Assembly: GCA_937873515.1 (NCBI GenBank)
Contig: CALMYB010000017.1
Coordinates: 62,001-126,000, forward strand
Source of the DNA: an uncultured Acidobacteriota bacterium
GTDB taxonomy: Bacteria > Acidobacteriota > Blastocatellia > Pyrinomonadales > Pyrinomonadaceae
Length of the DNA: 64,000 bases
Reading direction: 5' to 3'
The translations under genes were made by a program, and so were the position numbers. Shown piece after piece: positions 3,534-47,441 of the stretch. The notes beneath the pieces are model-generated. The model was given only the letters and a program-made list of their open reading frames with translations, had not been told where the DNA came from and ran no database searches. The stretch's first letter is position 1, and the number at the start of each line of letters is the position of its first letter.

Positions 3534-3549
3534 CGTTTTGATTGAAATT

Positions 3550-4935: not shown

Positions 4936-4936
4936 G

Positions 4937-5737: not shown

Positions 5738-6045
5738 CGTCTAAACCTTCATATCAGACAAATGGCAGACTGACCCCGGTTGGCGTTCACGCTGAACGAC
5801 AACACGAACCCGGCAGAGGCCGCGGTTTCTATTCCCGCTTGAGAAGCTTTCAGGACATCATGTCGGTAGGGAAGCAAAATCGATTGTTGCTGGTCGATCA
5901 ATGTCCCCGCCGTCTTGCTCCTTCGGCTCCGTTGGCGGAAATAAAGACTCGTTCCATCGGACTCGTTTTTTTTGACCTCGTTCGTTGGCACCGATCGTTG
6001 TGTACAAAAAATAAACCCGGGGTGAGTCTGCCATTTTCCTGATTA
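5738..6045. other. gap between sigma and anti-sigma genes
   Basis: 308 bases with no convincing gene. A reverse-strand frame (5749-5991, GTG start) could encode 80 residues but has no recognisable domain, no ribosome site and mixed composition. The gap could hold a separate promoter for the anti-sigma gene. Confidence 0.4.
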
Positions 6046-6702
6046 TCAAAAATCCTTTAACTTGCTCCGAAGCTCTTCTCGAGCACGGGCTATGCGCGAC
6101 TTCAAGGTTCCCATATTGATATCGAGGGCAGCGGCGCACTCCGCATATGTCAAACCTTCGATATCAGCCAGCACGATCGCTTCTCGATATATTGGCTTCA
6201 GCATAGAAAGGGCGCCTAGCAGGGCCGCTTCTCGTTCCCGTCCTAGGGTATCGGCTTCCGGGCTCGATGCACTGCCGATGATCGTGTCCCCAAGTGTGAT
6301 TCCCGTTTCGCCTATCGGTTCATCCAGCGACATCGTATTTTCACGGCGTCGTCTTCTCCACCATCTTGCTCGGTTGCGAGACTGATTGATCGCGATCCGG
6401 ATGAGCCACGTCTTCAGGCTTGCGTCTCCGCGGAACCCTGAGATGCTCCGAAATGCTCGAAGGAACGTCTCCTGCGTAAGGTCCGCCGCCTCCTCGCGGT
6501 CCGCGGATAACCTGAACGCAACTGCATAGATCGGACCGGAGAATCGTTCGACCAGCGTCTCGAACGCGGCCGCATCATTCGCCTTAAGCTTGTCAATAAA
6601 GCCGTTCTCGGAATGGCAGTTGTCGTGATCTGAGGCAGAAATGGCGCGGACCAACTCTTCGTCGCCAAAGGTTGTTGCCTTGCTGAAGAACATTCCGCTC
6701 AT
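6046..6702 (-). CDS. ECF RNA polymerase sigma factor (RpoE-like)
   Basis: A 218-residue sigma-70 family factor of the extracytoplasmic-function group. Region 2 contains F-E-T-L-V-E-R-F and D-L-T-Q-E-T-F-L-R-A-F followed by the promoter-melting part; region 4 contains the helix-turn-helix G-L-T-Y-A-E-C-A-A-A-L with G-T-L-K-S-R-I-A-R-A-R. Linker and length fit RpoE-like factors. The frame extends upstream to a GTG at 6798, but the ATG at 6702 is preceded by GAGG (close spacing) and is preferred; the ATG at 6693 is another option. It is probably controlled by the anti-sigma factor downstream. Confidence 0.9.
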   Translation of the reverse strand: MSGMFFSKATTFGDEELVRAISASDHDNCHSENGFIDKLKANDAAAFETLVERFSGPIYAVAFRLSADREEAADLTQETFLRAFRSISGFRGDASLKTWLIRIAINQSRNRARWWRRRRRENTMSLDEPIGETGITLGDTIIGSASSPEADTLGREREAALLGALSMLKPIYREAIVLADIEGLTYAECAAALDINMGTLKSRIARAREELRSKLKDF

Positions 6703-6960
6703 TTTCCTCAAGTCGAAAGAGCCATTTCCTGCAAACGAATATGCGCGATTTCCAGCATATTCGATCACTTTGACACCGCCGGCCCAATATTGTTCCACAA
6801 ACGAGTGAAAAAAAGTTTTCGGTGTCTCACGCCTGCATTTTCCTGTGCTTATTTGCTCTTCTCTGCAATTTGAGCTAAATTAACACTTTTGAAAAACGCC
6901 CGTTAAAGGCAATTATACAACGAACGAGCAAGATCGAATTGCAGTTTTTTTTCATAGAGC

Positions 6961-7803
6961 ATGGCAAAGAAGAAAAGACGTTTTGGCCCGGTTGAAGGGG
7001 CTGATGATCAACCGAAAGATGTGACGTACGAAGACCGGTTCCAAAAGACGGTCGGCCGCGGCGTCGAAGGTTTGGGCAAGGCTGTCGAGGGCCGAGGACG
7101 AACGATCCTATACATCATCGGGGCACTCGTCGTGGTCGGGATAATTGTTTTCGTGATCGCTTCTTGGTCACGCCGCTCGGGTGCGGAGGCTCAAACTGCT
7201 CTTGGACAGGCCATTGAGATCGCCGAAGCCCGTGTTACAAGCGTGCCGATGCCGGCCGGCTCGACCGAAAAGACCTTCAAGACGGAGAAGGATCGCGCCG
7301 ATGCTGCTATCGCGGCGTTTCAAAAGGTCGTCGATATGGGCAGCGGAGCGGTCGCAGAAAAGGCGAAGTACTTTATCGCGATGAACAAGCTTTCGACCGA
7401 CCGTCCGGGCGGGATCTCAGATCTTGAGGCTTTGTCGCAAGGGTCGTCCGACACGGCGTATCTGGCGAAATTCGCGCTTGCTCAGGTCCGAACAGATGAC
7501 GGCCAGTTCGATCAGGCCGCGAAATTGTACGAAGAACTTGCGGGCGTCGATAATCCCGTACTGTCGAAGGAAACGATCAATTTTGATCTTGCCGGCGTCT
7601 ATCAGAAGCAAAATAAGACGAAAGAAGCCGCCGATCTCTATTATAATATCGTCAAGGCCGCAAGCGAGGCGAAGAACGCAGACGGTGAGCCTGCAGCTCA
7701 GACAGAGACGGCACGCACCGCTCGCGAGAAACTGACGGAGATCGCTCCGGAGCGTGCAAAAGAGATCGCCGAGCCCGAGGCTGCCAATCCTTTTGGCGGC
7801 TAA
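6961..7803 (+). CDS. membrane-anchored TPR protein, YfgM-like
   Basis: A 280-residue protein with a basic cytoplasmic start (K-K-K-R-R), one membrane span (about 48-70) and an extracytoplasmic region of degenerate TPR repeats ending in an Ala/Glu-rich tail. This plan resembles the YfgM/TPR_21 family, single-span periplasmic TPR proteins that act with the Sec translocon and chaperones in Gram-negatives. Whether that role applies here is uncertain, because sequence similarity by eye is weak. It is divergent from the sigma gene, and the next gene on the same strand starts 75 bases downstream. Confidence 0.7.
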   Translation: MAKKKRRFGPVEGADDQPKDVTYEDRFQKTVGRGVEGLGKAVEGRGRTILYIIGALVVVGIIVFVIASWSRRSGAEAQTALGQAIEIAEARVTSVPMPAGSTEKTFKTEKDRADAAIAAFQKVVDMGSGAVAEKAKYFIAMNKLSTDRPGGISDLEALSQGSSDTAYLAKFALAQVRTDDGQFDQAAKLYEELAGVDNPVLSKETINFDLAGVYQKQNKTKEAADLYYNIVKAASEAKNADGEPAAQTETARTAREKLTEIAPERAKEIAEPEAANPFGG

Positions 7804-7878
7804 GATCGACCGAGTGTGTTAGGTCCGGCCTTTTTCCTTTCGCCGGTCTGCTCTTGCCGTACTCTCACTTTCTGAGCC

Positions 7879-9285
7879 ATGAGAGAAACCGTACCAGCAC
7901 CGAATGAACTTTGTGAGGAAGCGAAGCTTTCTGAGGCCGTTGGCGTGCGGGCGCCATTCAATTCTTACATAACTGCCTTTCTACTTGGTTCGTATGCGTG
8001 CGCACTACTCTTCTATGCAGAGTACGTGATCGCCGGTCTCGTTGCCTTCATCTTCTCGTGGGTGGTCGTACCTTTCCTCGCGGCATCCGATCACATCGTT
8101 TTTAACGGCAAGCGTATCTCTCGAACCGGCATCGTTCCGGTTCTCTGGGCAAGATTTAACTCGAATCGGAATTCTCTTAGGATCAGCGATATCGAACAGG
8201 TAGATACGCAGGCGATCCGCGTCCTGCGTCGAGGAAATCGCGTTCATTATCGTTATCGAACAGCGATCCGCGGCCGAGGCGTCGCATTTGCATTTACCTC
8301 GCATGGGGAGAATTTCCGTCGCCTCATCGGACAGCTTTTGCCGCGGCTGAGCGAAGACGTTCTCGATGCCAGGTCGCTCGACCTGCGTTCGTATCCATTA
8401 GATCCTAAAGAAGTGCTGATGAAGGCTTCGTTTGCAGGGATCCCGAGCGCGGATGTACTGAGGGAAACCGTTATGACGCGTCCCTCAAAGATGCGCGGCA
8501 AGGTCGAGATCGAATTGGATATCTCAGGTGACGGCGAGAATCGAGCCCGATATTTGGCCGACCTTGGCAACGAGCTTCGGCTTTCGGGACATTTGGTGAG
8601 GGCCTTGGAGTGTTTTCGCCGAGCCCTTTTGATCCAACGGCGAGATGGGCGCTTGATCTATGATTTTTCGCGGTGCCTTCATTCGCTCGCTGCCACAGAA
8701 CGCAGCCATAAGCTTGCGCGGCGGTCGGTGGCAGCTTTAAAGCTTGCAGAACGTTACTCAGCGGGTGATGCCGGACTTCTTGCTCGTATTGGAGAAGCAT
8801 TTGCACAGATAGGCGATTGGCGGAGTGCGGAGAACGCCTTCGGTCGGGCAGTAGGAGCAGGTGGTGATACCTTCCTTGCTTCTCGAGGCCTCGCTGAAGC
8901 AGCGTTGCGTGAAGGCAAGATAGCTCATGTGATCCACAGGTTCGCCGCCGCTGCTAACACGACACTGTCTCCGGCACTTCGACGTTGGTCCCTCGATGAG
9001 GCGAGCTACTACAGCAACCTGAATTCTGACGAAACCTATATGGAGATGGAGGTTGGCCGCGTGAACCTGCTTGGGTCGCTTCAACGCACGCGGCGGACAC
9101 TCCTTCGTATATCTTCGTTCGGCTTTTTTGTTGTTGCCGTGGGTGTCACCGGGGCGGACAACGATATTACGAATATCGGACTGGCCGTAGCGACGTTGGC
9201 ACTTGCCGTTTGGCTTGGCCTTAGGTTCTCTTCCGGCCTAATGGCGGAACGCATCGCATACGACGACGTCGCAAGCGAAGATTAA
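7879..9285 (+). CDS. integral membrane protein with TPR region
   Basis: A 468-residue protein of unknown function. Two hydrophobic spans (about 28-70) are followed by a PH-like stretch (S-D-H-I-V-F-N-G-K-R-I-S-R-T-G-I, then R-I-S-D-I-E-Q-V) resembling bacterial membrane PH domains. TPR-like helices occupy about 215-385 and two further spans lie near the C-terminus (about 412-450). The layout suggests a cytoplasmic TPR platform held at the membrane. No catalytic motif seen. It converges with the ATP-grasp gene. Confidence 0.65.
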   Translation: MRETVPAPNELCEEAKLSEAVGVRAPFNSYITAFLLGSYACALLFYAEYVIAGLVAFIFSWVVVPFLAASDHIVFNGKRISRTGIVPVLWARFNSNRNSLRISDIEQVDTQAIRVLRRGNRVHYRYRTAIRGRGVAFAFTSHGENFRRLIGQLLPRLSEDVLDARSLDLRSYPLDPKEVLMKASFAGIPSADVLRETVMTRPSKMRGKVEIELDISGDGENRARYLADLGNELRLSGHLVRALECFRRALLIQRRDGRLIYDFSRCLHSLAATERSHKLARRSVAALKLAERYSAGDAGLLARIGEAFAQIGDWRSAENAFGRAVGAGGDTFLASRGLAEAALREGKIAHVIHRFAAAANTTLSPALRRWSLDEASYYSNLNSDETYMEMEVGRVNLLGSLQRTRRTLLRISSFGFFVVAVGVTGADNDITNIGLAVATLALAVWLGLRFSSGLMAERIAYDDVASED

Positions 9286-12328: not shown

Positions 12329-15300
12329 ATGAAGACCACTATCACCTATCTCCTTCTATTTTCGATCTATTTAGGGATCTTTTCCCCGATCACAAATTCG
12401 ATCAAAGCACAGTCTGTCGCGGCAACGGCAGCCGAGCAAGATCAGCCCGAAACTGGCCTGAGCTTTCGTCTGAGCGAAGGCGAGGAGACCGCTGAAACGC
12501 GCGAAACACCGCCGCCAGCGAACGCCGAAGCGTTGTCGTCAGACGAAACAAACGGCTTGGTAAACAGGCTTCCGAAGATCGGTGAGCAAGATGGCGACCA
12601 GCAGGACGCCGCCATTAGGGCGGGTTCACTGCCGGCGCCGAAAAAGGGTGAGAAGATCCCTGTTCCGTTTCCCGGCAAGGGCGACGCCGATCGGCCTCAG
12701 ATCGACACTTCGAAGGAATTGGCGGTGGTCCGATACGCGCCGCAAGGCAAGGTCGAGCTTGCTCCCGACATGAGCCTCACGTTCTCTGAGCCGATGATCG
12801 CCGTTAGCTCGCAGGAAGAAGCCTCAAAATATGTTCCCGTCGAATTAACGCCGCAGATCGAGGGGAATTGGCGTTGGCTCGGGACGCGAACCTTGAAATT
12901 CGATCCTGCGAAACGCCTTCCGATGGCGACGGAATTCAAGGCCAGAGTCCCGGCCGGCACCAAGTCGGTCGCGGGAAAGGCCCTGAAGAAAGACGTCGTC
13001 TGGACTTTCTCGACACCAGCACCGAACGTGAAGATGCCGATGCCGACCGAAAATTGGGGGCCGCAGCGGCGGAACAAGATCATCTACATCGGCTTCGATC
13101 AGGCGATCGATGCCGAGGCCGTCCTCTCGCACATTTCGGTAACCGGTGCGGGCCGTAAGCTGAAAACCCGGCTTGCAACCGCCGAAGAGATCGCTTCGGA
13201 TTCGTCGGTCGCCTCTGCCTCAAGGCAGGAGCAGCCGGGAAGGTGGTTGGCGTTCCGTGCGATCAATGCTGATGGCGGAACCGATGCATTGCCCGCCGAT
13301 TCAACGATCGGCGTTACCGTTCATTCCGGCACGCCCTCGGCCGAGGGCCCGCTCAAGACGGAGAAGGATCAGTCATTCGCCTTTCGGACATATGGCGCGA
13401 TGAAACTCGGCCAGTACTACTGCCAGTATCCGTCTGCGGTCAATTGCTATCCGGACGACACATTTACGATCCAATTCTCAAACCCGATCGAGGGGTCGAA
13501 GTTCGACAAGTCGATGGTCCGCATCGAACCGGCACTCGAGAACGCGAATATCTTTGCGTCCGGGTACGCCATTTACGTCGCCGGGTGGAAGAATCCGAAT
13601 ACGAAATACCGCGTGACGGTCGCCGGCGATCTCCCTGATGTGTTCGGCCAGACGCTCGGCAGCGGTGTTACCGTTCGATTCGAGGTCGGGAATCCGCCGC
13701 CTTCGCTGATGGCGTCGAGCAAGATGATGCAGGTTCTGGATCCTTTCGGTCCAAGGCAATACTCGGTGTACTCGATCAATATCAGGGAACTTAGCGTAAA
13801 ACTGTACGCGGTTCGGCCAGAAGACTGGCCGGCCTATACGAAATATCTTCGCAATGAGAGGGCATCGTCCGGTGAGCCGGCAGCGATCCCCGGGGAGCTT
13901 GTTTCGGACCAGAAGGTAAAGGTAAATGCCGAGTCGGCGGCCAAGATGGTCGAGACGCGGATCGGTCTCGACAAATTCCTGAAGGGCGGCTTTGGCAACG
14001 TGATCGCGGAGATCGAAGACACCTCGCCTGCGAAAGACGAATATGCGCGGCGGCGCAAGACCGTATGGATACAATCGACGAACATCGGGCTCGATGCGTT
14101 CGTTGACAGCAATGAACTCGTCGGATTCGCGACCGATCTAAAGACGGGCAAGGCTCTCGCAGGGGTGAATTTTCACATTGCGCCGAATGGTGTCCAGGAT
14201 GTGAAGAGCTCGGCGACAGAGAACGGATGGTTCAGCAACGCGTGGGCGTGGCTCTCAAGTTGGGGAACTTTCGACCCGCAGGCTGCGACCGCGACGGACG
14301 AGAACGGCGATCCGCTTTCGATGATTTCCATTCCTGAGACGGAAACTCAAGCGTCATCCGCCACCGGCATCGCGCGTCTGAAACTGCCCGCGCAGCGGTC
14401 CGACACTGAGAATCTGCTCATTGCGCGTCTTGGCAACGACACGGCATTCGTTCCGGAAAACTCCCAGTACTTCTGGCAGCAGCGGGGAAATTGGTACGAA
14501 CAGCCATCGGGCAAACAGGTGTCGTGGTTCGTTTTTGATGACCGACATCTGTACAAGCCAAAAGAAGAGATCTCGGCGAAAGGCTACGTCCGATATATCG
14601 ATACGAGCGAGCTCGGCGATGTCGAGAAGGCGGCCGAGATCACGAGAGACGCGAAGAAGGTCAACTATGTTGTCAGAGATTCTAGAGGTGCCGAGCTCGG
14701 GAAGGGAACGACCGAACTGAACGCATTCGGGGCATTTGACCTAAAGGCGAAACTCCCCGACAACGCAAATCTTGGCTATGCGCGGATCGATCTTGAACTG
14801 CTGAATAACGACGGTGTCAGGATCGGGACATATTCGCACAGTTTCCAGATACAGGAGTTTCGACGCCCCGAGTACGAAGTGACGGCGAAGATGGAGACCG
14901 AGGGGCCGTACATGATCCAGGGTTCGGCAAAGTTGAGCGTCAACGCGAAATACTTCTCGGGCGGCGGCCTCGCAAAAGCGCCTGTGAAATGGACCGTAAC
15001 GGCGAACCCGACGAACTTCACGCCGCCAAATCGCGACGATTTCACGTTCGGTGTTTGGACGCCGTGGTGGAGAAGCTTCTACCGAAATAGCGGCAATAGC
15101 GAGACGAAGACTTTCGACGGCGTAACGGACAAGGACGGGCGGCATCTCCTGAAGATCGACCTTGATGCGGTCAATCCACCGAGGCCCTACAACGTGTCGG
15201 CATCGGGAGCCGTTACAGACGTGAACCGCCAAACGTGGTCAGGTTCGACAAGTTTCATCGTTCATCCGTCGTCGCTTTACGTTGGGATACGAACACCGCG

Positions 15301-18300
15301 GACATTCGTCCAAAAGGGTGAGACGATCAAGGTCGAATCGATCGTCTCGGACATTGAGGGCAAGATCCAAACTGGCCGTCGCGTCGATATCAAGGCGGTT
15401 AGGCTCGAATGGACGAACGAAAAAGGGAATTGGATCGAGAAAAGCGTCGATCCGCAAAACTGCACGGTTACGAGCGCCGAAAAGGCTCAGACGTGCAATT
15501 TCGTCGCCAACGAAGGCGGGCGATACCGGATCACTGCCCGCGTCGTCGATGATAAGGAAAGGCCGAACGAGAGCGAACTCACGATCTGGGTTCCGGGAGG
15601 CGAGCGTCCGAAGGACCGCGATCTCAAGCAGCAGAACGTCGATATCATCCCTTCGCAAAAGGAATACAAGCCCGGCGATACCGCTGAGATACTTGTGCTC
15701 TCGCCGTTCACTCCTGCCGAAGGTGTGCTCACGCTGCGACGAAACGGCATCGTCTCGACGCAGCATTTCAAGAGCGAAGGCAATTCCGTAACGCTTAAGA
15801 TCCCGATCCTTGAGGCATATATGCCGAACATCGAGGCGCAGGTCGATCTCGTCGGCGTGAGCGAACGCGATACCGGCGGGCTGAACTTCACAAAGAAACT
15901 TCCGCCGCAGCCTGCGTATGCTTCGGGCAGCATCGATCTGAAGGTCTCGACGGAATCGCGAAAGCTGTCCGTAACGGCCGATCCTGCGGACTCGACGCTC
16001 GTCCCCGGCGGCAAAACGAAGTTGAGCGTTGCGGTAAAGGACTCTGCGGGAAACCCTGCGGCGAACACTGAGGTCGCTGTCGTCGTCGTTGACGAAAGCG
16101 TTCTCTACCTTGCAGGATACACGCCGCCCGAACCGCTGCCGAGTTTTTACGAGCACCGCGGCCCGGGTGTTAGGGAATTTCATTCTCGAGACAATATCGA
16201 GATTGAGAGGCCCGAACTCGTTGCGTCGTTTTTGCGGTTGGCGCCTGCAGATCCGACCGAAACCAGACTGCAAACGAATCTAACTCAAAGGCTGATCGAA
16301 TCGCTCCCAAAAGGCACGACGTTTACGAGCTTGTTGAAAGCTGCGCCAAGCGTGAGAGCTGAAGGTCTATCAGGCGGTTTTCAGGTTGATGGTGCGTCGG
16401 CCTCGGAGAACAAATGGCTGGAAAAGGATGTCGCGTACATCATAACGGCCGATGGTCAGGACAAGGGCAAGTCTCCGATCGCAATTCGGCAGAATTTTTC
16501 GGCTCTTGCGGCATTTATGCCGAGTGTCAAGACGGATTCGAGCGGCAAGGCGACGGTCGATGTAAAGCTGCCGGACAATCTGACGCGTTATCGCATCATC
16601 GCGGTCGCGGCAGATGACGGAAAGCGTTTCGGCAAGGGCGAATCCTCGATCACGGCACGCAAGCCGCTGATGGTGCGGCCGAGCGCTCCTCGATTCCTGA
16701 ATTATGGCGATAAGGCGGAAATTCCCGTTGTCATCCAGAATCAATCCGACAAGGATATGACGGTCGATGTCGCTATGCGTGCCTCGAACGTGAAAATGCT
16801 CGACGGCGCGGATTCAGCGGCGGGAAAACAGGTCCTCGTCCGCGCAAACGATCGCGCGGAAGTGCGTTTCGCGGTCGAGACCGAGAAGGCCGGGACGGCG
16901 AGTTTCCAATTCGCGGCAGCATCGGGGGAATATTCCGACGCGGCCGAGATCTCGCTGCCTGTCTGGACACCGGCGACCAGCGAGGCGTTTGCGACATACG
17001 GAACTGTCGATCAGAACGGCGCGATATTCCAGCCCGTAAAGGCTCCCGACAATATCATTCCGAGTTTCGGCGGGCTCGAGGTAACGACGAGTTCGACTCA
17101 GCTGCAGGAGCTGACCGACGCGTACATCTACCTCGCGAAGTATCCTTTCGCGTGCTCGGAACAGCTTTCTTCGAGAATGATCTCGACGGCCGCATTGCGC
17201 GACGTTCTGACGGCTTTCAAAACAAAGGATATGCCGAAGCCTGAGGAGATCGAAAGCGAGTTCAAGACAGATATGAAGGCTCTTGCTTCGCGCCAGCGTT
17301 CTGACGGAAGCTTCGGCCTTTGGACGAGCGCTCCGGAGCGATACCAGTGGCCGTTCCTGACCGTGCACGTGGTCCATGCGATGGCGCTTGCCAAGGAAAA
17401 AGGTTACGACGTGCCGCAGGATGCGATCGAGCGGGCGAAACCTTACCTCAGGGACATCGAACGCTACTATTGGTTCGATAACCCTAAAATTCGTTGGACG
17501 ATCTCGTCATACGCCCTTTACGTGCGTGCAAGACTCGGCGACCGCGACGTCGCAAAGGCGAAGACACTCCTTGCCGAAGCGACGGTCAAGGAAATGCCGT
17601 ATGAGGGCCTCGGCTGGCTGCTGTCCGCCTTTTCCGATGATCCGAATTTTGCGGCCGAGAAGACGGCGATACTCACATTCCTGAACAACCACGTTACCGA
17701 GACCGCATCGACCGCGAATTTCGTTACAGAGTACGGCGACGGTGCGTGGCTGATAATGTACTCGAACCGACGTGCAGACGGCGTGCTCCTAGAAGCGCTG
17801 ATAAAGGCAGATCCGCAGAACGACATCATCCCGAAACTCGTTCGCGGCCTGCTCGATCATCGCGTCAAAGGTGCCTGGGCGAATACGCAGGAGAACGTCT
17901 TTATCCTGCTCGCTCTCGACCGCTATTTCGCGGCGTATGAGAAGGTTACGCCGGATTTCGTCGCGAAGATGTGGCTTGGGGATACATACGCCGGCGAGCA
18001 AGTGTTCAAGGGACGTTCGGTCGATTCGAAGGTGCTGAATATTCCGATGTCCTATCTCTTGAAACAAGGCGGTTCGGCCGATCTGATCCTCGACAAGAAA
18101 GGGCCCGGAAGGCTCTACTACCGAATCGGGATGAAGTATGCTCCGAGCAGTTTGAAGCTCGAACCAGCGGATTATGGATTCACCGTGCTGAGGTCGTACG
18201 AGCCGGTCGATAAACCGGACGATGTGAAGCAGAATCCGGATGGATCGTGGACGTTCAAGACAGGAGCGAGGGTGCGTGTGCGTCTTACGATGATCGCGGA

Positions 18301-18667
18301 ATCGCGTCGGTATCACGTCGCACTCGTCGATCCGATGCCCGCGGGCCTCGAAACTTTGAATCCGGAACTTGCCGCGACCGAGGAGATCCCTGACGACAAG
18401 AAGCAAACGCCGCTCATAACCGGCGGTTCGCTGAGTTACGGCAGTTGGTTCTGGTGGTATCGCGCTCATTGGTTCGAACACGAGAACTTCCGCGATGAAC
18501 GTGCCGAAGCCTTCACATCACTTTTGTGGGAAGGCGTGTACAATTACTCGTACGTAACGCGGGCGACAACGCCCGGAAAATTCGTGGTCCCGCCCGCCAA
18601 GGCCGAGGAGATGTATCATCCCGAAACCTTTGGCCGCAGTGGCACGGATTCTGTTACGATCGAGTAA
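12329..18667 (+). CDS. bacterial alpha-2-macroglobulin with thioester
   Basis: A 2112-residue exported protein. Signal peptide (about 1-28), an Ala/Glu-rich spacer, a run of macroglobulin-type beta-sandwich domains (the region near R-Y-A-P-Q-G-K-V-E-L-A-P onward), a bait-type region, an A2M segment with D-N-L-T-R-Y-R, and a complement-like helical domain. The thioester motif C-S-E-Q is present at Cys1609, so it belongs to the thioester-forming type that can trap proteases covalently. Bacterial members guard the periplasm and often pair with the glycosyltransferase PBP1C. No pbpC lies in this window, and the partner here is instead the lipoprotein at 18670, two bases downstream. Ribosome site GAGG before the ATG. 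Confidence 0.92.
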   Translation: MKTTITYLLLFSIYLGIFSPITNSIKAQSVAATAAEQDQPETGLSFRLSEGEETAETRETPPPANAEALSSDETNGLVNRLPKIGEQDGDQQDAAIRAGSLPAPKKGEKIPVPFPGKGDADRPQIDTSKELAVVRYAPQGKVELAPDMSLTFSEPMIAVSSQEEASKYVPVELTPQIEGNWRWLGTRTLKFDPAKRLPMATEFKARVPAGTKSVAGKALKKDVVWTFSTPAPNVKMPMPTENWGPQRRNKIIYIGFDQAIDAEAVLSHISVTGAGRKLKTRLATAEEIASDSSVASASRQEQPGRWLAFRAINADGGTDALPADSTIGVTVHSGTPSAEGPLKTEKDQSFAFRTYGAMKLGQYYCQYPSAVNCYPDDTFTIQFSNPIEGSKFDKSMVRIEPALENANIFASGYAIYVAGWKNPNTKYRVTVAGDLPDVFGQTLGSGVTVRFEVGNPPPSLMASSKMMQVLDPFGPRQYSVYSINIRELSVKLYAVRPEDWPAYTKYLRNERASSGEPAAIPGELVSDQKVKVNAESAAKMVETRIGLDKFLKGGFGNVIAEIEDTSPAKDEYARRRKTVWIQSTNIGLDAFVDSNELVGFATDLKTGKALAGVNFHIAPNGVQDVKSSATENGWFSNAWAWLSSWGTFDPQAATATDENGDPLSMISIPETETQASSATGIARLKLPAQRSDTENLLIARLGNDTAFVPENSQYFWQQRGNWYEQPSGKQVSWFVFDDRHLYKPKEEISAKGYVRYIDTSELGDVEKAAEITRDAKKVNYVVRDSRGAELGKGTTELNAFGAFDLKAKLPDNANLGYARIDLELLNNDGVRIGTYSHSFQIQEFRRPEYEVTAKMETEGPYMIQGSAKLSVNAKYFSGGGLAKAPVKWTVTANPTNFTPPNRDDFTFGVWTPWWRSFYRNSGNSETKTFDGVTDKDGRHLLKIDLDAVNPPRPYNVSASGAVTDVNRQTWSGSTSFIVHPSSLYVGIRTPRTFVQKGETIKVESIVSDIEGKIQTGRRVDIKAVRLEWTNEKGNWIEKSVDPQNCTVTSAEKAQTCNFVANEGGRYRITARVVDDKERPNESELTIWVPGGERPKDRDLKQQNVDIIPSQKEYKPGDTAEILVLSPFTPAEGVLTLRRNGIVSTQHFKSEGNSVTLKIPILEAYMPNIEAQVDLVGVSERDTGGLNFTKKLPPQPAYASGSIDLKVSTESRKLSVTADPADSTLVPGGKTKLSVAVKDSAGNPAANTEVAVVVVDESVLYLAGYTPPEPLPSFYEHRGPGVREFHSRDNIEIERPELVASFLRLAPADPTETRLQTNLTQRLIESLPKGTTFTSLLKAAPSVRAEGLSGGFQVDGASASENKWLEKDVAYIITADGQDKGKSPIAIRQNFSALAAFMPSVKTDSSGKATVDVKLPDNLTRYRIIAVAADDGKRFGKGESSITARKPLMVRPSAPRFLNYGDKAEIPVVIQNQSDKDMTVDVAMRASNVKMLDGADSAAGKQVLVRANDRAEVRFAVETEKAGTASFQFAAASGEYSDAAEISLPVWTPATSEAFATYGTVDQNGAIFQPVKAPDNIIPSFGGLEVTTSSTQLQELTDAYIYLAKYPFACSEQLSSRMISTAALRDVLTAFKTKDMPKPEEIESEFKTDMKALASRQRSDGSFGLWTSAPERYQWPFLTVHVVHAMALAKEKGYDVPQDAIERAKPYLRDIERYYWFDNPKIRWTISSYALYVRARLGDRDVAKAKTLLAEATVKEMPYEGLGWLLSAFSDDPNFAAEKTAILTFLNNHVTETASTANFVTEYGDGAWLIMYSNRRADGVLLEALIKADPQNDIIPKLVRGLLDHRVKGAWANTQENVFILLALDRYFAAYEKVTPDFVAKMWLGDTYAGEQVFKGRSVDSKVLNIPMSYLLKQGGSADLILDKKGPGRLYYRIGMKYAPSSLKLEPADYGFTVLRSYEPVDKPDDVKQNPDGSWTFKTGARVRVRLTMIAESRRYHVALVDPMPAGLETLNPELAATEEIPDDKKQTPLITGGSLSYGSWFWWYRAHWFEHENFRDERAEAFTSLLWEGVYNYSYVTRATTPGKFVVPPAKAEEMYHPETFGRSGTDSVTIE

Positions 18668-38770: not shown

Positions 38771-40678
38771 GTGTTATTCCGTCTCTCAAATATCTCTAAA
38801 TCATACGGCGGCAACGCGATCCTCAAGGACGTCTCGTTCCAAGTGAATCCGGGCGAGAAGATCGGGCTTGTCGGCCGAAATGGTGCCGGAAAGACGACGC
38901 TCTTCAACCTTCTCACCGGCCGCGAAGCACCTGATGCCGGCGAGATCGTAAAGATGCGCGGGCTGAAACTCGGACTTCTCGAACAGCACGTCGATTTTGC
39001 TGGGAAGGAGAACGTGCACACCGCCGCTCTTTCCGCGTTCGAGCACATACACGATATCGAGAACGAGATGCGCGCTCTCGAGCGGCAGATGGAGACCGAT
39101 CATTCGGAGCCGATCCTTGAGCGATATGCGGATCTCCAAACGGCGTTCGAGCAGGCCGACGGATTTACTTACGCCGCCCGTGCCGAAGCCATTCTGCAAG
39201 GCGTCGGCTTCTCGAACGATCAGTGGGGCCTGGAGACGAACACTCTTTCCGGCGGCCAAAAGAATCGGCTTGGGATGGCGAGACTTCTGTTGTCGAATTC
39301 AGATGTTCTGCTACTCGACGAACCGACGAACCACCTCGATGTCGATGCGGTAGAATGGCTCGAAGAATACCTGACGAGCTACGCGACCGCGTACGTGATC
39401 ATCAGCCACGACCGCTATTTTCTTGATCGCACGACCGACCGCATCATCGAACTCGAAAATGGCCGTGCGGTCTCGTACAAGGGCAATTATTCGAAGTTTC
39501 TCGTCGGAAGGGAACTCCGTCGTGAACAGCAGCAGCGTGAGTATGAGAATCAGCGGTCAATGATCGCAAAGACAGAGGAATTCATTCGGCGAAACCTCGA
39601 AGGACAAAAGACAAAGCAGGCAAAATCCCGCCGCAATATGCTTGAACGGCTCGACCGGATCGAGGCCGTAAAGTCGGAAAAGAGCGGCGGCAATTTCAAG
39701 CTCAGACAGGTCGAGCGTGCGGGCAACAACGTGCTGACGACCGAAGAGCTTGCGATCGGTTACGGGTCAAAGGTGCTTGCCTCCGGGCTGAACGTCTCGC
39801 TTCATCGCGGCGGTGCCCTCGGTATTATCGGCGGGAACGGCACAGGCAAGACGACCTTATTGAAAACGCTGATCGGCGAGATCCGCGAACTCGGCGGCAA
39901 GCTTGCTTGGGGAACAAAGACGAATTTTGGTTACTACTCTCAGAATCTCGACGATCTGCACGAAGGCAACGACATCATCTCGGAACTTCGCCGCGTGGCT
40001 CCGACAGCAGAAAATGTTGAGTTGCGCTCGTTCCTCGCGCGATTTCTCTTCTTTGGCGAGGACGTTGAGAAGCGTGTTCGCGATCTTTCGGGCGGTGAAA
40101 AAGGCAGGCTTGCCCTCGCAAAACTCATCTATTCACAGAAGAATGTCCTCATCCTCGACGAGCCCACGAATCACCTCGATATTCCGGCACGCGAGGCTCT
40201 TGAGAGCGCGCTCGACGAGTATCCGGGAACGATCATCACGGTCAGCCACGATCGATATTTTTTGGATCGGATCGCAACGCAAATGCTCTCATTCGAGGCG
40301 GATGGCAGCGTGCTCGATTACGCGGGAAACTATTCGGAATTTCACGATTGGAAAGCTGCGAGGCTTCGATCGCCTGAGTATGCCGCCTCGTCACCGGACG
40401 TCAAAGCCGCCGCTGAGGAAACCAACACTATCTCCCGAGCATCAAATCTTTCAAAGAATCAGATCCAAAAGATCAAGAATCGGATAAGAGATCTGGAAAC
40501 GAGCGACATCGTAAAAGCGGAAGATGATGTTGCGAAACTCCAAGCGGAAATGACCGACGCCGCTGTGGCGGCAGACCCTGAGAAACTTCGTGAGATCGCT
40601 GAAGGACTCAATTCGGCCGAGCTCCGCGTAAAGTCTCTATATGGCGAGTGGGAAGACCTGCTCGAACAAATGAGGTAA
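38771..40678 (+). CDS. ABC-F family ATPase
   Basis: A 635-residue soluble protein with two ABC ATPase domains and no membrane part. Domain 1: Walker A G-R-N-G-A-G-K-T-T, signature L-S-G-G-Q-K-N-R. Domain 2: G-G-N-G-T-G-K-T-T, signature L-S-G-G-E-K-G-R. The linker between them carries basic helices (K-Q-A-K-S-R-R-N-M-L-E-R-L), and a C-terminal coiled coil follows (about 555-635). ABC-F proteins act on the ribosome, some giving antibiotic resistance; this subtype looks Uup/YfmR-like. GTG start. The order of nucleotide sites is normal. Confidence 0.95.
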   Translation: MLFRLSNISKSYGGNAILKDVSFQVNPGEKIGLVGRNGAGKTTLFNLLTGREAPDAGEIVKMRGLKLGLLEQHVDFAGKENVHTAALSAFEHIHDIENEMRALERQMETDHSEPILERYADLQTAFEQADGFTYAARAEAILQGVGFSNDQWGLETNTLSGGQKNRLGMARLLLSNSDVLLLDEPTNHLDVDAVEWLEEYLTSYATAYVIISHDRYFLDRTTDRIIELENGRAVSYKGNYSKFLVGRELRREQQQREYENQRSMIAKTEEFIRRNLEGQKTKQAKSRRNMLERLDRIEAVKSEKSGGNFKLRQVERAGNNVLTTEELAIGYGSKVLASGLNVSLHRGGALGIIGGNGTGKTTLLKTLIGEIRELGGKLAWGTKTNFGYYSQNLDDLHEGNDIISELRRVAPTAENVELRSFLARFLFFGEDVEKRVRDLSGGEKGRLALAKLIYSQKNVLILDEPTNHLDIPAREALESALDEYPGTIITVSHDRYFLDRIATQMLSFEADGSVLDYAGNYSEFHDWKAARLRSPEYAASSPDVKAAAEETNTISRASNLSKNQIQKIKNRIRDLETSDIVKAEDDVAKLQAEMTDAAVAADPEKLREIAEGLNSAELRVKSLYGEWEDLLEQMR

Positions 40679-40894: not shown

Positions 40895-40994
40895 TTCACA
40901 GGGCAAAACATCGCCCGGAGCGTGTGAAACGCGCGACAGCATCGCGGGGCAGGAGTATGATCTTGAGTATGGTTATAACCTTGCGGGGCAGCTT

Positions 40995-42782
40995 GTGAGC
41001 GAGAGGTATCCGAGCGGCAGGGTGGTTACGAACACCTACGATGCAAACGGCCGTCTTGCGGGCGTCGCCGACGGTTCACGCACGTATCTCTCGAACCTGC
41101 AATTCCAGGGCCTCGGCGGCAGTCTCTCGTCATTGTCGTATGGCAATGGCACGGTTCAGACGTTCGGCCTCAACGACCGTATGCAAATGATCTCGCAGGA
41201 GCTAAAACGCGGTACCGAAACCTTGCAGAAGTACGCGTATGGTTATGGCCAGTTGAACGCTTCGGGTACACTGGACACGACGAAGAATAATGGGCAGTTG
41301 TCGCAGATCGAGAGTTGGATCGGTACGGCGAAACAGTGGACGCAGAAGTTCAGTTATGACGATGTTGGGCGCTTGAAGCAGTCTGCGGAGTACAAGGGGA
41401 CGGATGGTTCGTTGACGTATCGGCAGGTGTTCGATTTCGATCGATTTGGGAATATGTATCGCAAGGCGGCGAGTAACCCATCGACGGGGCAGGCGAATCC
41501 TTTGCCTTATACGCAGATCGAGGAGAGCGATATTTCGAAGGCGACGAATCGGTTTACCACGCAGACGACGTATGACGAGGCGGGGAGTGTTGTTTCGGAT
41601 GCGAAGTTTCGCGGGATGGGTTTTGGGTACGACGCGAACGGGCGCATGGTGAAGGCTACGAAGGCGAATGTGCCGGACGCGCTTTCGGTCTATGACGCGG
41701 CGGGGATGCGTGTGGCGGAGCGTGTGAACGACGTTTGGCGTTTCAGCATCTATGACATTGGGGGTAAGATCGTCGCGGAATACGGCGGCGTTGTGGCGAC
41801 GGACGAAGGCGGCGTGAAATATCTCCTCTCAGATTGGCAAGGCTCGACGCGTGCTATGATGAGCAACGGCGGTTTTGTAAAGGCGAGGATGGACTACACA
41901 GCGTATGGCGAAGAGATCGGGGTGGGAACAGGGCTTCGCACGAACGCCCAAGGTTTTGATTCTGGGATAAACCCGCGTCAGCAATATGGCCTCACCGAAC
42001 GCGACGACGCAACGGGCCTTGATCACACCTGGTTCCGCAAGAATGAAGGCCGTGCAGGCCGTTGGACAAGCCCCGACCCTTACCTTGGCTCAATGTCGGT
42101 ATTCGATCCACAAAGCTTCAACAGATTTTCATACGTCGCCAACCAACCCACAAACTTCATCGACCCAACAGGACTTAGGATTGAACAGGTTTGTCAGTGG
42201 GTTCGCTATGGATCGGCATCCTATACCGACCCAGAGGGAATCACCCATTACATGCCTGGATTTGAGCGTCGTGAGTGCACACTAATCTATATTGTGGATG
42301 CTCCTGGCGGTTTTTCTTTTCCGATTGCTGGCGGCGACACGGGGGTGTTTGACCCAGGGAGGCCGACCGATCTTGGGCAGGATGCGCGCAATGCAACGTA
42401 CAAAACGTGTCTCAAAGATAAGGTCAGGAATCGAGTAAATGCGGTGAATCATCGACGAGATGACGAACTAAAGCGAAACATTCTCGGCTCGGTCGCTCCG
42501 TCGCCGCTGCCAGCACCGCTAGGTTGGTTTTCCCCCGTTGCAATGGCTCCCGGAGGGGTAGTGCTGCCTGACCAGACTGACGAACAGCTTACTGCGAATT
42601 ATCTAATCGGAATGTGGAACCCGAAAGACCTGGGACCTATCGGTGCGGGAGCAAATATACTTGTCGCTGGAGCAATGGAGGGGACCTACGGCTATTACAA
42701 TCACCGCAAGGCTTTAGCGCAAGCCAAAGCGATTACGGCCGCTGATAAGAAAGACTGTCTCCGCGAAGCGAACAATCAATAA
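40995..42782 (+). CDS. Rhs-repeat protein, 5'-truncated, with C-terminal module 1
   Basis: At least 595 residues of Rhs/YD repeats (units such as Y-D-A-N-G-R-L and F-D-R-F-G-N), then the Rhs core ending D-P-T-G-L (about residue 393-397), then an unrelated C-terminal module of about 195 residues. YD-type protein continues upstream of the GTG at 40995, at least to 40926 (frame E-Y-D-L-E-Y-G-Y-N-L-A-G-Q), with no start, so the gene is probably a 5'-truncated remnant. The tip module carries C-Q-W-V-R-Y-G and two Cys near C-T-L-I-Y; no toxin family is recognised. The small lipoprotein gene follows after three bases. Confidence 0.75.
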   Translation: MSERYPSGRVVTNTYDANGRLAGVADGSRTYLSNLQFQGLGGSLSSLSYGNGTVQTFGLNDRMQMISQELKRGTETLQKYAYGYGQLNASGTLDTTKNNGQLSQIESWIGTAKQWTQKFSYDDVGRLKQSAEYKGTDGSLTYRQVFDFDRFGNMYRKAASNPSTGQANPLPYTQIEESDISKATNRFTTQTTYDEAGSVVSDAKFRGMGFGYDANGRMVKATKANVPDALSVYDAAGMRVAERVNDVWRFSIYDIGGKIVAEYGGVVATDEGGVKYLLSDWQGSTRAMMSNGGFVKARMDYTAYGEEIGVGTGLRTNAQGFDSGINPRQQYGLTERDDATGLDHTWFRKNEGRAGRWTSPDPYLGSMSVFDPQSFNRFSYVANQPTNFIDPTGLRIEQVCQWVRYGSASYTDPEGITHYMPGFERRECTLIYIVDAPGGFSFPIAGGDTGVFDPGRPTDLGQDARNATYKTCLKDKVRNRVNAVNHRRDDELKRNILGSVAPSPLPAPLGWFSPVAMAPGGVVLPDQTDEQLTANYLIGMWNPKDLGPIGAGANILVAGAMEGTYGYYNHRKALAQAKAITAADKKDCLREANNQ

Positions 42783-42785
42783 GTG

Positions 42786-43358
42786 ATGTTAAGAAAGACG
42801 AGTTTGATCTTAGTATTTGCTATGGCACAAATCGGGTGCGTATCACCGATGGCGGAATCGCAAAATGGAGTAGCTCCGCGGGCGACTCCGTCCGACGAGT
42901 ATGCAGCCTTCGTAGTGAACCTTGAGACGGGAGACAAGATGCTCTCTTCAGGTGATTTCGATAAAGCCGAAACGAATTTCCAAGAAGCCAACAAGATTGC
43001 AACGAAGCACCACTGGATAAATGAAACTGTATCTTCGACTACCGAACTAGGGAAGGTCTCGGTTGCGAGACGCGATCTAACTTTGGCTGAAAAGTACTAT
43101 ACCGAAGCTGTCCGGATTTGTCAGAGCAGTCCTGAGTGTGATGTTGATCAGCTCGACGTAGCGGTAAGCTATTTAAACCTTTTCTACGTATTTCGTATAA
43201 AGACTCCTGGAGAAGCTGCTGCGGTGCTCACCCGCCTAGATTCATCCGACAAGTTTGCAAGTGGTGAGTGCGACAAATTCATCTGTGAACAGTGGAGTTG
43301 GATAGCCTCTAGCGGCGGAGACGCATCTCAGAGGCCGGAAAAGTGCAAAAGAAGGTAA
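42786..43358 (+). CDS. small TPR-like lipoprotein after Rhs module 1
   Basis: A 190-residue protein with a lipoprotein signal (lipobox Q-I-G-C, Cys18) and TPR-like helices (D-F-D-K-A-E-T-N-F-Q-E-A, L-T-L-A-E-K-Y-Y-T-E-A). Six further Cys lie in the last third. It starts immediately after the Rhs stop (ATG 42786; a GTG at 42783 is possible), where immunity genes of Rhs toxins sit. A periplasmic lipoprotein would be an atypical immunity protein unless the toxin acts in the envelope. Confidence 0.6.
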   Translation: MLRKTSLILVFAMAQIGCVSPMAESQNGVAPRATPSDEYAAFVVNLETGDKMLSSGDFDKAETNFQEANKIATKHHWINETVSSTTELGKVSVARRDLTLAEKYYTEAVRICQSSPECDVDQLDVAVSYLNLFYVFRIKTPGEAAAVLTRLDSSDKFASGECDKFICEQWSWIASSGGDASQRPEKCKRR

Positions 43359-43365
43359 AAAGCCC

Positions 43366-44346
43366 ATGAACACGCGGAGTGTGCCAGAATCGACGCGTGC
43401 TATGATGAGCAACGGCGGTTTTGTGAAGGCGCGGATGGACTACACGGCGTATGGTGAGAATATCGGAACAGGAACAGGGCTACGCACTACTGCCCAAGGC
43501 TTCGATTCTGCCATCAATCCGCGTCAGCAATATGGTTTGACCGAACGTGATTCCGCCACAGGATTAGATCATACCCCATGGCGGAAAAATGAAAATAGAG
43601 CCGGAAGATGGACAAGTCCAGATCCATTTACAGGCTCTGCAAGCATCGGCGATCCACAATCATTCAATCGTTACTCATACGTTGGTGGTGACCCGATAAA
43701 TTGGATAGATCCCTCAGGCTTAAATGAAGCAACGCCAGTCGAAGGCTGCTCTTACAGCGGAAAGAGAGACCATAACGGAGAGCCGGTTTACGATGGCCAT
43801 ATTGTAAATGGTCGATGTGTGTCAGACTACGGCACAGTGCAAGTTTTTGCGGGAGATTTAAGCTGGCTATTTGGTGGCGAATCCACTTGGAATCCTGTCG
43901 GACAGGGCCATGGCTTCGAGGAGCTAGGTGGTGGCAGTCCTACAGGAGGCGGCACGACACAAACTGGCGGCGGTAAATATCCAACTCCGCGAACCCAGCA
44001 GGACGATCTCAACTCGTGCATTGGGAAAGCGATTGCGAAATACCTTTCGAACGTTGCTAAGGGAACCGGCCAAACTTATCTTGGCCTTAGTATGGTTGCC
44101 GGAGGCGGTGCTATTGCAGCTGCGGGATACCGCTTTGGAATTAAGCATCTCGGCAGTGCAATAAGTGCCGGTGAAGGAATTAATGCCTTGGCCGCTCCGC
44201 ACCATATATCAAAAATTGCTTTAATCGGTGTTCCTTTTTTCGCTGCGGGGTACGCGCTTGCTGACAGGGGGGTAAATAAACTTCGGTTAGCCCCCAGTTC
44301 CTTAGACGCGGAAGTTCGACACTGCAGAGAGGTCTTTAAGAGCTGA
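43366..44346 (+). CDS. orphan Rhs core with C-terminal module 2
   Basis: A 326-residue protein. Residues about 9-120 repeat the Rhs core of the 40995 gene (S-T-R-A-M-M-S-N-G-G-F-V-K-A-R-M-D) nearly base for base, ending at D-P-S-G-L. A different C-terminal module follows: a Gly-rich linker and two hydrophobic segments (about 245-262 and 284-303), so it may insert in or cross a membrane. No YD repeats precede the core, so it is an orphan tip cassette, as at many Rhs loci after recombination. No toxin family recognised. Confidence 0.6.
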   Translation: MNTRSVPESTRAMMSNGGFVKARMDYTAYGENIGTGTGLRTTAQGFDSAINPRQQYGLTERDSATGLDHTPWRKNENRAGRWTSPDPFTGSASIGDPQSFNRYSYVGGDPINWIDPSGLNEATPVEGCSYSGKRDHNGEPVYDGHIVNGRCVSDYGTVQVFAGDLSWLFGGESTWNPVGQGHGFEELGGGSPTGGGTTQTGGGKYPTPRTQQDDLNSCIGKAIAKYLSNVAKGTGQTYLGLSMVAGGGAIAAAGYRFGIKHLGSAISAGEGINALAAPHHISKIALIGVPFFAAGYALADRGVNKLRLAPSSLDAEVRHCREVFKS

Positions 44347-44366
44347 TTGTCAGCATTATTTGAGAC

Positions 44367-44639
44367 ATGACTATTTTTCTGTTATCGATAATAGCCCTGT
44401 TCGGCCTATATTCTATTTTTGTTGCGATCCTCCTAATGGCTACCGGGAGGTACTCGAATAACGGGAAGGGAGCTGTCGTAGCGTTACTCACTGCAATCGC
44501 GGAGATTGGGATCTCTGTATCAGCCATTTACGTGTACATCAACGCGATCCTCTCCGATATCACGCTATGGTTTGCAGTTGGCGTGCTTCTAGGCTTGAAC
44601 ATTCTTGTGTTCGTACTCTGGGGAAAGGTCAAGTATTGA
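44367..44639 (+). CDS. small three-span membrane protein after Rhs module 2
   Basis: A 90-residue protein with three hydrophobic segments (about 2-25, 36-58, 65-85). It follows the second Rhs module by 20 bases, the place of an immunity gene, and a membrane location fits a partner of a membrane-active tip (inference). It overlaps the next Rhs fragment by four bases. Confidence 0.5.
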   Translation: MTIFLLSIIALFGLYSIFVAILLMATGRYSNNGKGAVVALLTAIAEIGISVSAIYVYINAILSDITLWFAVGVLLGLNILVFVLWGKVKY

Positions 44640-45505
44640 CGCAAAAAACGGCGAAGCAGTACACTCAGAAGTTCGTTTACGACGCGGTTGGCCGTCTCGA
44701 ACGCGAAACGGAATATCGCGGTGACAATGGGAATCAGGTGTACAGTCAGAAATTCAGCTACGACCGTTTTGGGAATCGATATTTGAAAGCTTCGGAGAAT
44801 TCGGCGGCGAACGATCCGCTTTTTCCGTTCTTTATCGAAGAAAATAACGTCGATCGTGCAACCAATCGGCTCGCCTCGAACACAAATACGAGTTACGACG
44901 AATCGGGCGGTGTCGTTACGGACAACAAGTTTCGCGGACTGAAATATTTTTACGATGCGAACGGGCGTATGGTGAAGAGTTCGACGTTGAGCGATGTCGA
45001 AGTTGGGATCGCGGTGATGGATGCGGCGGGGAACAAGGTTGCGGAGCGTGTGAATGATGTTTGGCGTTTTTCGGTTTATGATGCATTTGGGAGGCTCGTG
45101 GCGGATTACGGAGGGGCGACAGCGACTGACGAGGGCGGTGTGAAGTTTGTGCAGCAGGACATACGGGGTTCGACGCGGTGCGTTACTAGTTTAACCGGCA
45201 ATGTTCTTGCGCGTATGGACTATCAGGCTTTTGGCGAACAGATACCTAACAACATCGGCCAGCGTACCGCAATCGGCTTCACGAACGCCGACTCCATCCG
45301 CCACCGCTACGCTCTCACCGAGGACGACACCGGCACCGGCCTTGCCGACACCTGGTGGCGCAAACTCGAAAACCGCTCCGGCCGCTGGACCTCCCCCGAT
45401 CCTTACAACGGCTCAATGTCCCTCGGCGATCCACAGTCATTCAACCGCTACTCAAAGCCGACTGTCGGCGGCTATCGCCGCCTCCAAGGTTGGTTTGGGC
45501 GGTAG
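44636..45505 (+). pseudogene. third Rhs fragment, truncated at both ends
   Basis: About 290 residues of YD repeats and Rhs core (Y-D-A-V-G-R-L-E-R-E-T, then A-R-M-D-Y-Q-A-F-G-E-Q). The core breaks off after D-P-Q-S-F-N-R-Y-S, where the intact copies go on to the D-P-x-G-L motif; here it continues into 18 unrelated residues and a stop. No proper start exists at its left end (frame opened from 44567 or TTG 44636). A remnant left by recombination. Confidence 0.65.
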
Positions 45506-45554: not shown

Positions 45555-45847
45555 CGCCCTTACTCAGGTGCGGGCTTCTGCAAGGTTGGCCTCAAAAGAA
45601 CGGTTAAATACAGCTTTCAGCTATCAGCCGTTAGCTTTCAGCCGCAGTATCTCGATCCGCGTGGGAGGCTCTGACAACGGAATCACGCCCTTACTCAGGT
45701 GCGGGCTTCTGCAAGGTTGGCCTCAAAGGAGCGTTTATATACAGCTTTCAGCTATCAGCCGTTAGCTTTCAGCCGCAGTATCTCGATCCGCGTAGGAGGT
45801 TCTGACAACGGAATCACACCCTTACTCGGGTGCGGGCTCCTACCGCT
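45555..45847. repeat. 131-base tandem repeat
   Basis: Two full units (45555-45685 and 45686-45816) and the first 31 bases of a third (45817-45847). Units differ at only a few positions, so the duplication is recent. Each contains an inner motif AGCTATCAGCCGTTAGC, a variant of which occurs at 57140. Short frames inside simply repeat the unit and are not genes. Confidence 0.8.

Positions 45848-45965: not shown

Positions 45966-47441
<1,476 letters not shown>

Follow-up and report, generated by a model that had tools for sequence, protein, structure and literature searches.

An apparently relocated array of orphan Rhs tip cassettes with candidate immunity genes in an Acidobacteriota genome

The stretch of DNA from a soil-type member of the Acidobacteriota analysed here (64,000 nucleotides, hereafter the window; G000:C17:62001-126000, from a host genome, G000, of 3.56 Mb in 27 contigs) carries an array of Rhs cores and C-terminal modules (tips) between the genes for an ABC-F ATPase and an IMPDH. 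We read this array as the remains of an exported Rhs lineage that is in part carried by conjugation, namely a set of orphan tip-immunity cassettes whose tips would act on the cell envelope and are now stranded, and put the probability of this reading at roughly 0.7. Orphan Rhs cassettes are an established kind of element, while we know of no precedent for the tip families, for exchange at the level of the linker within this group, or for an array relocated with fossils left behind; no published work on any of the three was found in the open-licence literature. For the Acidobacteriota, a phylum for which we found little such work in that literature, the array would thus add two Rhs tip families not described before, each with a candidate antidote, and a natural history of a tip array comprising an ancestral site, fossils, a new site and exchanged tips.

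Five intact reading frames lie between the ABC-F and IMPDH genes: ORF1 (a core with tip 1), a TPR protein, ORF2 (a core with tip 2), a protein with three transmembrane (TM) segments and ORF3 (a core without tip; Table 1). An earlier note on this DNA had described three Rhs cores with two different C-terminal modules, and both observations stand: the cores, with their ends now mapped, are all on the + strand, and cassettes 1 and 2 bear unrelated modules on a shared core type. Core 1 (~40950-42176) terminates in DPTGL and core 2 (43390-43722) in DPSGL, and core 3 (44657-45451) is broken off before DPxGL. Profile TIGR03696 of NCBIfam gives 41.8 bits for ORF1 and 51.1 bits for ORF2 (cut-off 32.5), and 21.6 bits, below the cut-off, for ORF3. 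The second cassette had been singled out as the orphan of the array; it does start late, as a fragment without YD repeats, but cores 1 and 3 are orphans too, core 1 having neither an N-terminal nor an export region and starting 10 nt 3' of a palindromic repeat. Core 3 is cut, as had been noticed, though near the core's end rather than in its middle, with its last codons inside a second palindromic repeat. The repeat ahead of core 1 is of a type (GCGTGTGAAACGCGC) also found at a cassette edge in a relative, G014 (L096).

The claim that cores 1 and 2 are nearly identical in DNA did not survive comparison. They share 77% identity over 243 nt, with ~92% in the first 60 nt only and 33-83% in later 30-nt steps, and dS (divergence at synonymous sites, Nei-Gojobori) is ~2.3, with a ratio of nonsynonymous to synonymous divergence (dN/dS) of 0.08. 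A recent duplication is rejected, as synonymous sites are saturated, and the two cores are evidently old paralogues. Compared with its G014 counterpart, from which it is separated by a synonymous distance typical of the genome, core 3 shows a dN/dS of 0.18; though truncated in both G000 and G014, it is, judging by this ratio, not drifting freely, and gene conversion from intact cores could be the source of the low value.

These values bear on whether the tips are spent, non-toxic debris, as C-terminal extensions of defunct Rhs fragments on their way out of the genome, followed by genes that happen to lie there. The lack of an N-terminus, promoter signals at background level (5 found vs 3.7 expected), ends cut at palindromic repeats on both sides and fossils of the same array elsewhere in the genome (see below) are what this explanation would predict. 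We nevertheless consider it unlikely, given five intact frames, core dN/dS values of 0.08-0.18 and a pair of tip 1 and TPR follower kept in the genome of another species, G019. The array had earlier been called decaying, which fits in that it is cut at both ends and undeliverable, but not in that its frames are intact and core 3 is constrained.

In their organisation the cassettes resemble the orphan rhs-CT/rhsI modules of enterobacteria as described in PMC3967940, with a core remnant and a tip, no start or export signal, an immunity gene behind them, and a tip reached only by recombination in the core. In Salmonella LT2, according to the same account, a main rhs gene with 522 bp at 95% identity let the orphan tip be recovered (PMC3967940). 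Unlike LT2, where the main rhs gene is a neighbour (PMC3967940), G000 has no core of comparable identity. Of its 28 Rhs core matches in all, the best outside the array reaches only 38-39% protein identity, and in DNA no window core matches any of 13 loci of its own genome over more than 69 nt (at 77%); a recombinable full-length core of the LT2 type was not found among the G000 core matches. The full Rhs gene that might have been expected elsewhere is thus missing from G000 at useful similarity, though full-length genes of the same type are present in other species. Because G000 has no core similar enough for rescue by recombination and the array has no export part, its tips look stranded, and would be undeliverable unless a full-length gene of this type were newly acquired. 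The immunity genes would be the parts most likely to stay useful. G000 also has several Rhs arrays with another type of core, on contigs C1, C7, C9, C13 and C20, one of them comprising five consecutive cores (C7:125-137 kb).

Delivery can be pictured from the full-length relatives. A hydrophobic export signal is found at the N-terminus of two of the four, namely the two whose N-terminus is covered. One of these genes, in G014 (L095, G014:C8:46000-60000, 3432-9227), has a hydrophobic N-terminus and is given only RHS_repeat and DUF6443 by Pfam, which found no PAAR domain, a trait of Rhs proteins delivered by the type VI secretion system (T6SS). The export signal and the lack of PAAR set these relatives apart from the orphan rhs-CT/rhsI modules of enterobacteria, as far as these are described in PMC3967940. 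The G014 gene sits among conjugation genes, encoding a coupling protein (T4SS-DNA_transf, E 8e-32), a MobL relaxase (E 3.5e-5), TrbI (E 1.7e-5; like MobL, below the curated cut-off) and a TraG P-loop protein, so that Rhs genes with the same type of core as the window's can apparently be carried by a conjugative element.

How tips are exchanged is illustrated by three neighbouring cassettes of G019 (L102, G019:C23; tips at 7507, 5295 and 2012, minus strand), which carry unrelated toxin domains. Their linker is 100% identical over 150 nt, after which the fraction of identical positions drops to 0.33-0.40 in the following 60 nt and to 0.23-0.30 farther on. Besides the core, exchange in this lineage therefore evidently uses the linker, and these cassettes place a tip exchange point there at the level of single bases. 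Most orphan frames of the window's core type retain 42 to 461 codons 5' of the tip, and the break points therefore vary. The earlier view that orphan tips are made by recombination is supported. We propose that homologous recombination, within the core or the Cys-Cys/Gly linker, brings in new tips and pushes older ones downstream, and that a tip delivered by a full-length Rhs protein would be released by cleavage after DPxGL and take effect at the envelope of the target.

An intact gene begins 0-20 nt after the end of each window tip. To place these pairs we used a survey of 161 core-ended frames from the fetched loci, which yielded 140 tips of at least 90 aa (21 were dropped as truncated or short). 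Tip 1 has one clear relative there, in the G019 array, which is the best of the 139 other tips (BLASTP E 4e-9, ~25% identity; phmmer E 1.2e-5). Behind this homologue comes a TPR lipoprotein of 186 aa that, of 134 followers, matches the follower of the window's tip 1 best, beating 500/500 shuffles. In the same way, tips T007 (G019) and T016 (G035), on the same core type, are 58% identical (E 2e-58) and have followers of ~150 aa each with five hydrophobic segments. As both pairs recur, tip and follower evidently move together in this Rhs lineage, and the joint recurrence of tip 1 and its TPR follower in G019 supports a toxin-immunity pair in which the TPR lipoprotein would neutralise tip 1. The T007/T016-type pair (L102:4651-5295 and L099:1482-2165) represents, for its part, another undescribed tip family (VHHFAAYFSGGINGQW), found in two species.

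Tip 1 had no match in Pfam, NCBIfam, PADLOC, PHROGs or the PDB sequences, and its follower gave generic TPR matches only. A profile of the tip 1 pair (A1) recovered nothing but its own two rows across 162 genomes of the class; a five-row profile (A2) gave 11 matches in 396 genomes of the phylum, five being its own rows and six being weak (E 0.0015-0.0066) and set aside. For tip 2, the same four family collections gave one chance-level match (End_beta_propel, E 0.15) and the PDB sequences four weak ones (E 0.21-0.89), none convincing; in the tip-to-tip comparison it joined with no other surveyed tip. Candidate relatives of its C-terminal domain in 36 of the 396 genomes (E<=0.05) were rejected, since all but tip 2 itself score at most 20 bits, which we read as composition. 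ORF2 matched 39 plasmid records, those listed matching mainly the core. Neither tip was found in 59 relatives, and the viral contigs gave no tip matches. The tips do therefore appear to belong to unrecognised families, as first suggested.

Single-sequence AlphaFold2 models of both tips share a small two-Cys beta module, a disordered linker and then helices. Tip 2 looks membrane-active, and its follower is a small TM protein of 90 aa with three hydrophobic segments, as in pore-forming or ionophore tip systems; we propose insertion of tip 2 into the inner membrane and its neutralisation by the three-TM protein. Tse5-CT/Tsi5 of Pseudomonas aeruginosa offers a parallel, being described as an Rhs pore-forming tip without predicted enzymatic activity and with a small TM immunity protein (PMC9637101), but Tse5 reaches its target through a T6SS (PMC9637101), and a Cys-Cys linker module is present in the window tip. 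The likeness is one of description: no sequence match was found, although none was looked for directly. The ionophore toxins of contact-dependent inhibition (CDI) with their two-helix CdiI proteins likewise combine an N-terminal entry module and a helical membrane domain, a putative glycine zipper, a small TM immunity protein and very low conservation (PMC11630599); unlike the window tips they are carried on a CdiA scaffold, and a five-helix bundle is predicted for them (PMC11630599). EsxX of Staphylococcus aureus is a glycine-zipper depolarising toxin with membrane or soluble neutralisers (PMC12744356), again alike by description, though it is an LXG protein of the type VII secretion system (PMC12744356).

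The array could alternatively be kept as an immunity library, with followers 1 and 2 expressed and protecting against relatives that still deliver the tips, the tips themselves being passengers. The immunity genes are intact despite impossible delivery, and orphan immunity genes with this role have been described in other systems (PMC12744356). No relative with tip 2 was found, however, and the only relative with a tip 1 homologue, at ~25% identity, is probably too distant for cross-protection, so that we hold this as a possible but clearly less favoured explanation than stranded toxin cassettes.

A cell-envelope target is likely for the tips, judging by the company they keep. The window's core type accounts for 24 of the 140 surveyed tips, and sister tips on it include cell-wall enzymes (Peptidase_M23, E 1.1e-20; VanY, E 3.1e-7); the family scans cover 20 sister tips, with T013 and T016 outside them, T016 having no match in a separate scan. 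Other sister tips matched DUF4329, YMGG-like Gly-zipper and Peptidase_M91 weakly (E 0.005-0.009). An HExxH motif is present in 35 of the 140 tips (6/24 on the window's core type and 29/116 on others), without a firm Pfam match where tested, and absent from both window tips. The C-terminal metallopeptidase of VgrG2b, which acts in the periplasm and has an immunity protein (PMC6899460), is a parallel for these HExxH sister tips; VgrG2b differs in being a T6SS spike protein (PMC6899460) and is unrelated to tips 1 or 2. Envelope-looking followers are found behind 20 of 23 tips on the window's core type vs 12 of 22 background open reading frames of the window (p 0.023), and at least two Cys within the first 45 residues in 19/24 of these tips vs 4/34 window proteins. 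A 'bracketed' rule (Cys, a hydrophobic Gly/Ala stretch, Cys near the end, no HExxH) picks 8/140 tips, both window tips included. Of the seven bracketed tips with a known follower, four have a small follower with at least two TM segments, vs 14/128 others (p 0.006, an optimistic value because the rule was written after examples had been inspected); the eighth, T013, has a 107-aa follower with three TM segments apparent by eye. A single superfamily of bracketed tips is not proved, as T003, T012, T018, T148 and T021, which come next in the ranking by the tip 1 pair profile, reach E 0.1-0.6 only.

The earlier prediction that both tips are toxins is thus supported indirectly, by the recurrence of tip 1 and follower in G019 and by the cell-wall enzymes among sister tips, while tip 2 is without a homologue. 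Polymorphic toxin tips in general are often nucleases or deaminases, according to PMC3482391, and tips 1 and 2 might accordingly be cytoplasmic enzymes such as nucleases, the exported look of their followers being incidental. Profile searches of Pfam and NCBIfam gave no catalytic family, though, the followers are three-TM and lipoprotein-like, and sister tips are cell-wall enzymes; we regard such an enzyme as very unlikely. More tentatively, tips 1 and 2 may represent a new and extremely divergent group of envelope-acting Rhs toxins, in which a Cys-Cys 'landing pad' would be swapped as a DNA unit ahead of a Cys-helix/Gly-Ala hairpin/helix-Cys membrane domain, with Sec export, small TM or TPR lipoprotein neutralisers, whole arrays mobile within chromosomes and truncated cores under selection; this wider proposal is possible rather than probable.

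The array has not always been where it is now. Synteny of the island was followed in 12 fetched relatives and IMPDH counted in 41 genus genomes, and no Rhs lies between ABC-F and IMPDH in the relatives that are closest judged by IMPDH. This interval was read in five of the 12 (G003, G014, G021, G022 and G002), the other seven having no DNA similarity to the island. It contains an M28 peptidase gene in G003 (Pfam E 1.5e-27) and what reads as the same gene in G014 and G021, and is a short gap in G022 and G002. No close copy of the M28 gene was found in G000 (best 31%), where, on this comparison, the array replaced it between ABC-F and IMPDH. The G014 counterpart lies between DinB and MeaB-like genes (named by reading, not by profile) and carries other tips; core 3 is truncated there in the same way as in the window, with the same repeats behind it (79.6% over 828 nt). 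The DinB-MeaB contig of G003 ends inside such an array, and G003 also probably keeps its array at this site. In G000 itself, the DinB-MeaB site contains a Fic gene (Pfam) and, in array order, fossils of the immunity 2 C-terminus, of a core stretch and of the palindromic tail, each beating 300/300 shuffles; two of the eight G000 sites of the palindrome are the window tail and this fossil. The gene inside the old array site is of DUF4172-Fic type (L109:5085-6194 and L110:5538-6656 cover G000 and, by likeness, G003).

Distances to G014 differ along the array, dS being 0.57 for core 3, within the range of the flanking genes (0.54-0.78), and 1.09 for core 1. The 3' end of the array therefore looks vertically inherited and its front cassettes exchanged. 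As repeats are found at both array ends, repeat-mediated recombination is the simplest guess for the way in which it moved. The position might alternatively be due only to mis-assembly or a mixture of strains, given that none of the 12 relatives shares the gene order of G000 and that repeats lie near both junctions. The right junction, however, retains the repeat that G003 has beside IMPDH, core 3 matches the flanking genes in its distance to G014, and G000 itself still has ordered fossils at the former site, all of which makes such an artefact highly improbable, the least probable of the explanations considered here.

Several points weigh against the reading of stranded, envelope-acting toxin cassettes. 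The match between the two TPR followers is weak in itself (BLASTP E 0.014), and the pairing of tip 2, which has no homologue, with the next gene is by position alone. The structural models are weak (mean predicted local distance difference test score, pLDDT, 61 for tip 1 and 49 for tip 2), a Foldseek search with the tip 1 fold returned nothing significant, and membrane insertion is less secure for tip 1, which by hydropathy has no 19-residue TM segment. The background of the envelope test is small (22 open reading frames), and on other core types the excess of envelope-looking followers (70/105) is not significant (p 0.33); among the bracketed tips, two have TPR lipoprotein followers and the follower of T005 has no TM segment. 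G000 may be a metagenome-assembled genome, and its junctions are those of the assembly. Finally, the dN/dS of core 3 speaks against simple decay.

Table 1. Features of the Rhs array and its flanks (window positions)
Feature	Position	Strand	Basis
ABC-F ATPase gene, left flank	38771..40678	+	named by reading the sequence; syntenic in 12/12 fetched relatives
Palindromic repeat, GCGTGTGAAACGCGC type, just 5' of core 1	40917..40939	+	sole window match, 0 expected
ORF1, orphan Rhs core and tip 1	40995..42782	+	core similarity from ~40950; TIGR03696 E 1.1e-10
Tip 1 Cys-Cys beta module and linker	42177..42330	+	AlphaFold2 strands at 2-36, pLDDT ~66-85
Tip 1 helical C-domain (Cys-helix ... helix-Cys), predicted toxin	42357..42779	+	G019 homologue; helices 65-103, 155-199 (AlphaFold2)
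Candidate immunity 1, lipoprotein-like TPR protein, 191 aa	42783..43358	+	Pfam TPR_MalT E 2.2e-6, below curated cut-off
ORF2, core fragment (from ~43390) and tip 2	43366..44346	+	TIGR03696 E 1.4e-13
Tip 2 helical Gly/Ala-rich C-domain, predicted membrane-active toxin	43978..44343	+	picked by 'bracketed' rule; AlphaFold2 helices, low pLDDT 49
Candidate immunity 2, 90 aa, three hydrophobic segments	44367..44639	+	C-terminal fossil at DinB-MeaB
ORF3, truncated core 3 (44657-45451), no tip	44567..45505	+	equal truncation in G014 (L096); dN/dS 0.18
Palindromic repeat ending core 3	45463..45489	+	sole window match; 8 sites in 3.56 Mb genome
Two tandem copies of 131-nt repeat, 3' of array	45555..45816	+	sequence comparison
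IMPDH (guaB-type) gene, right flank	45966..47441	-	named by reading the sequence; in 40/41 genus genomes

Elsewhere in the window, an open frame of 2112 aa is found at 12329-18667.

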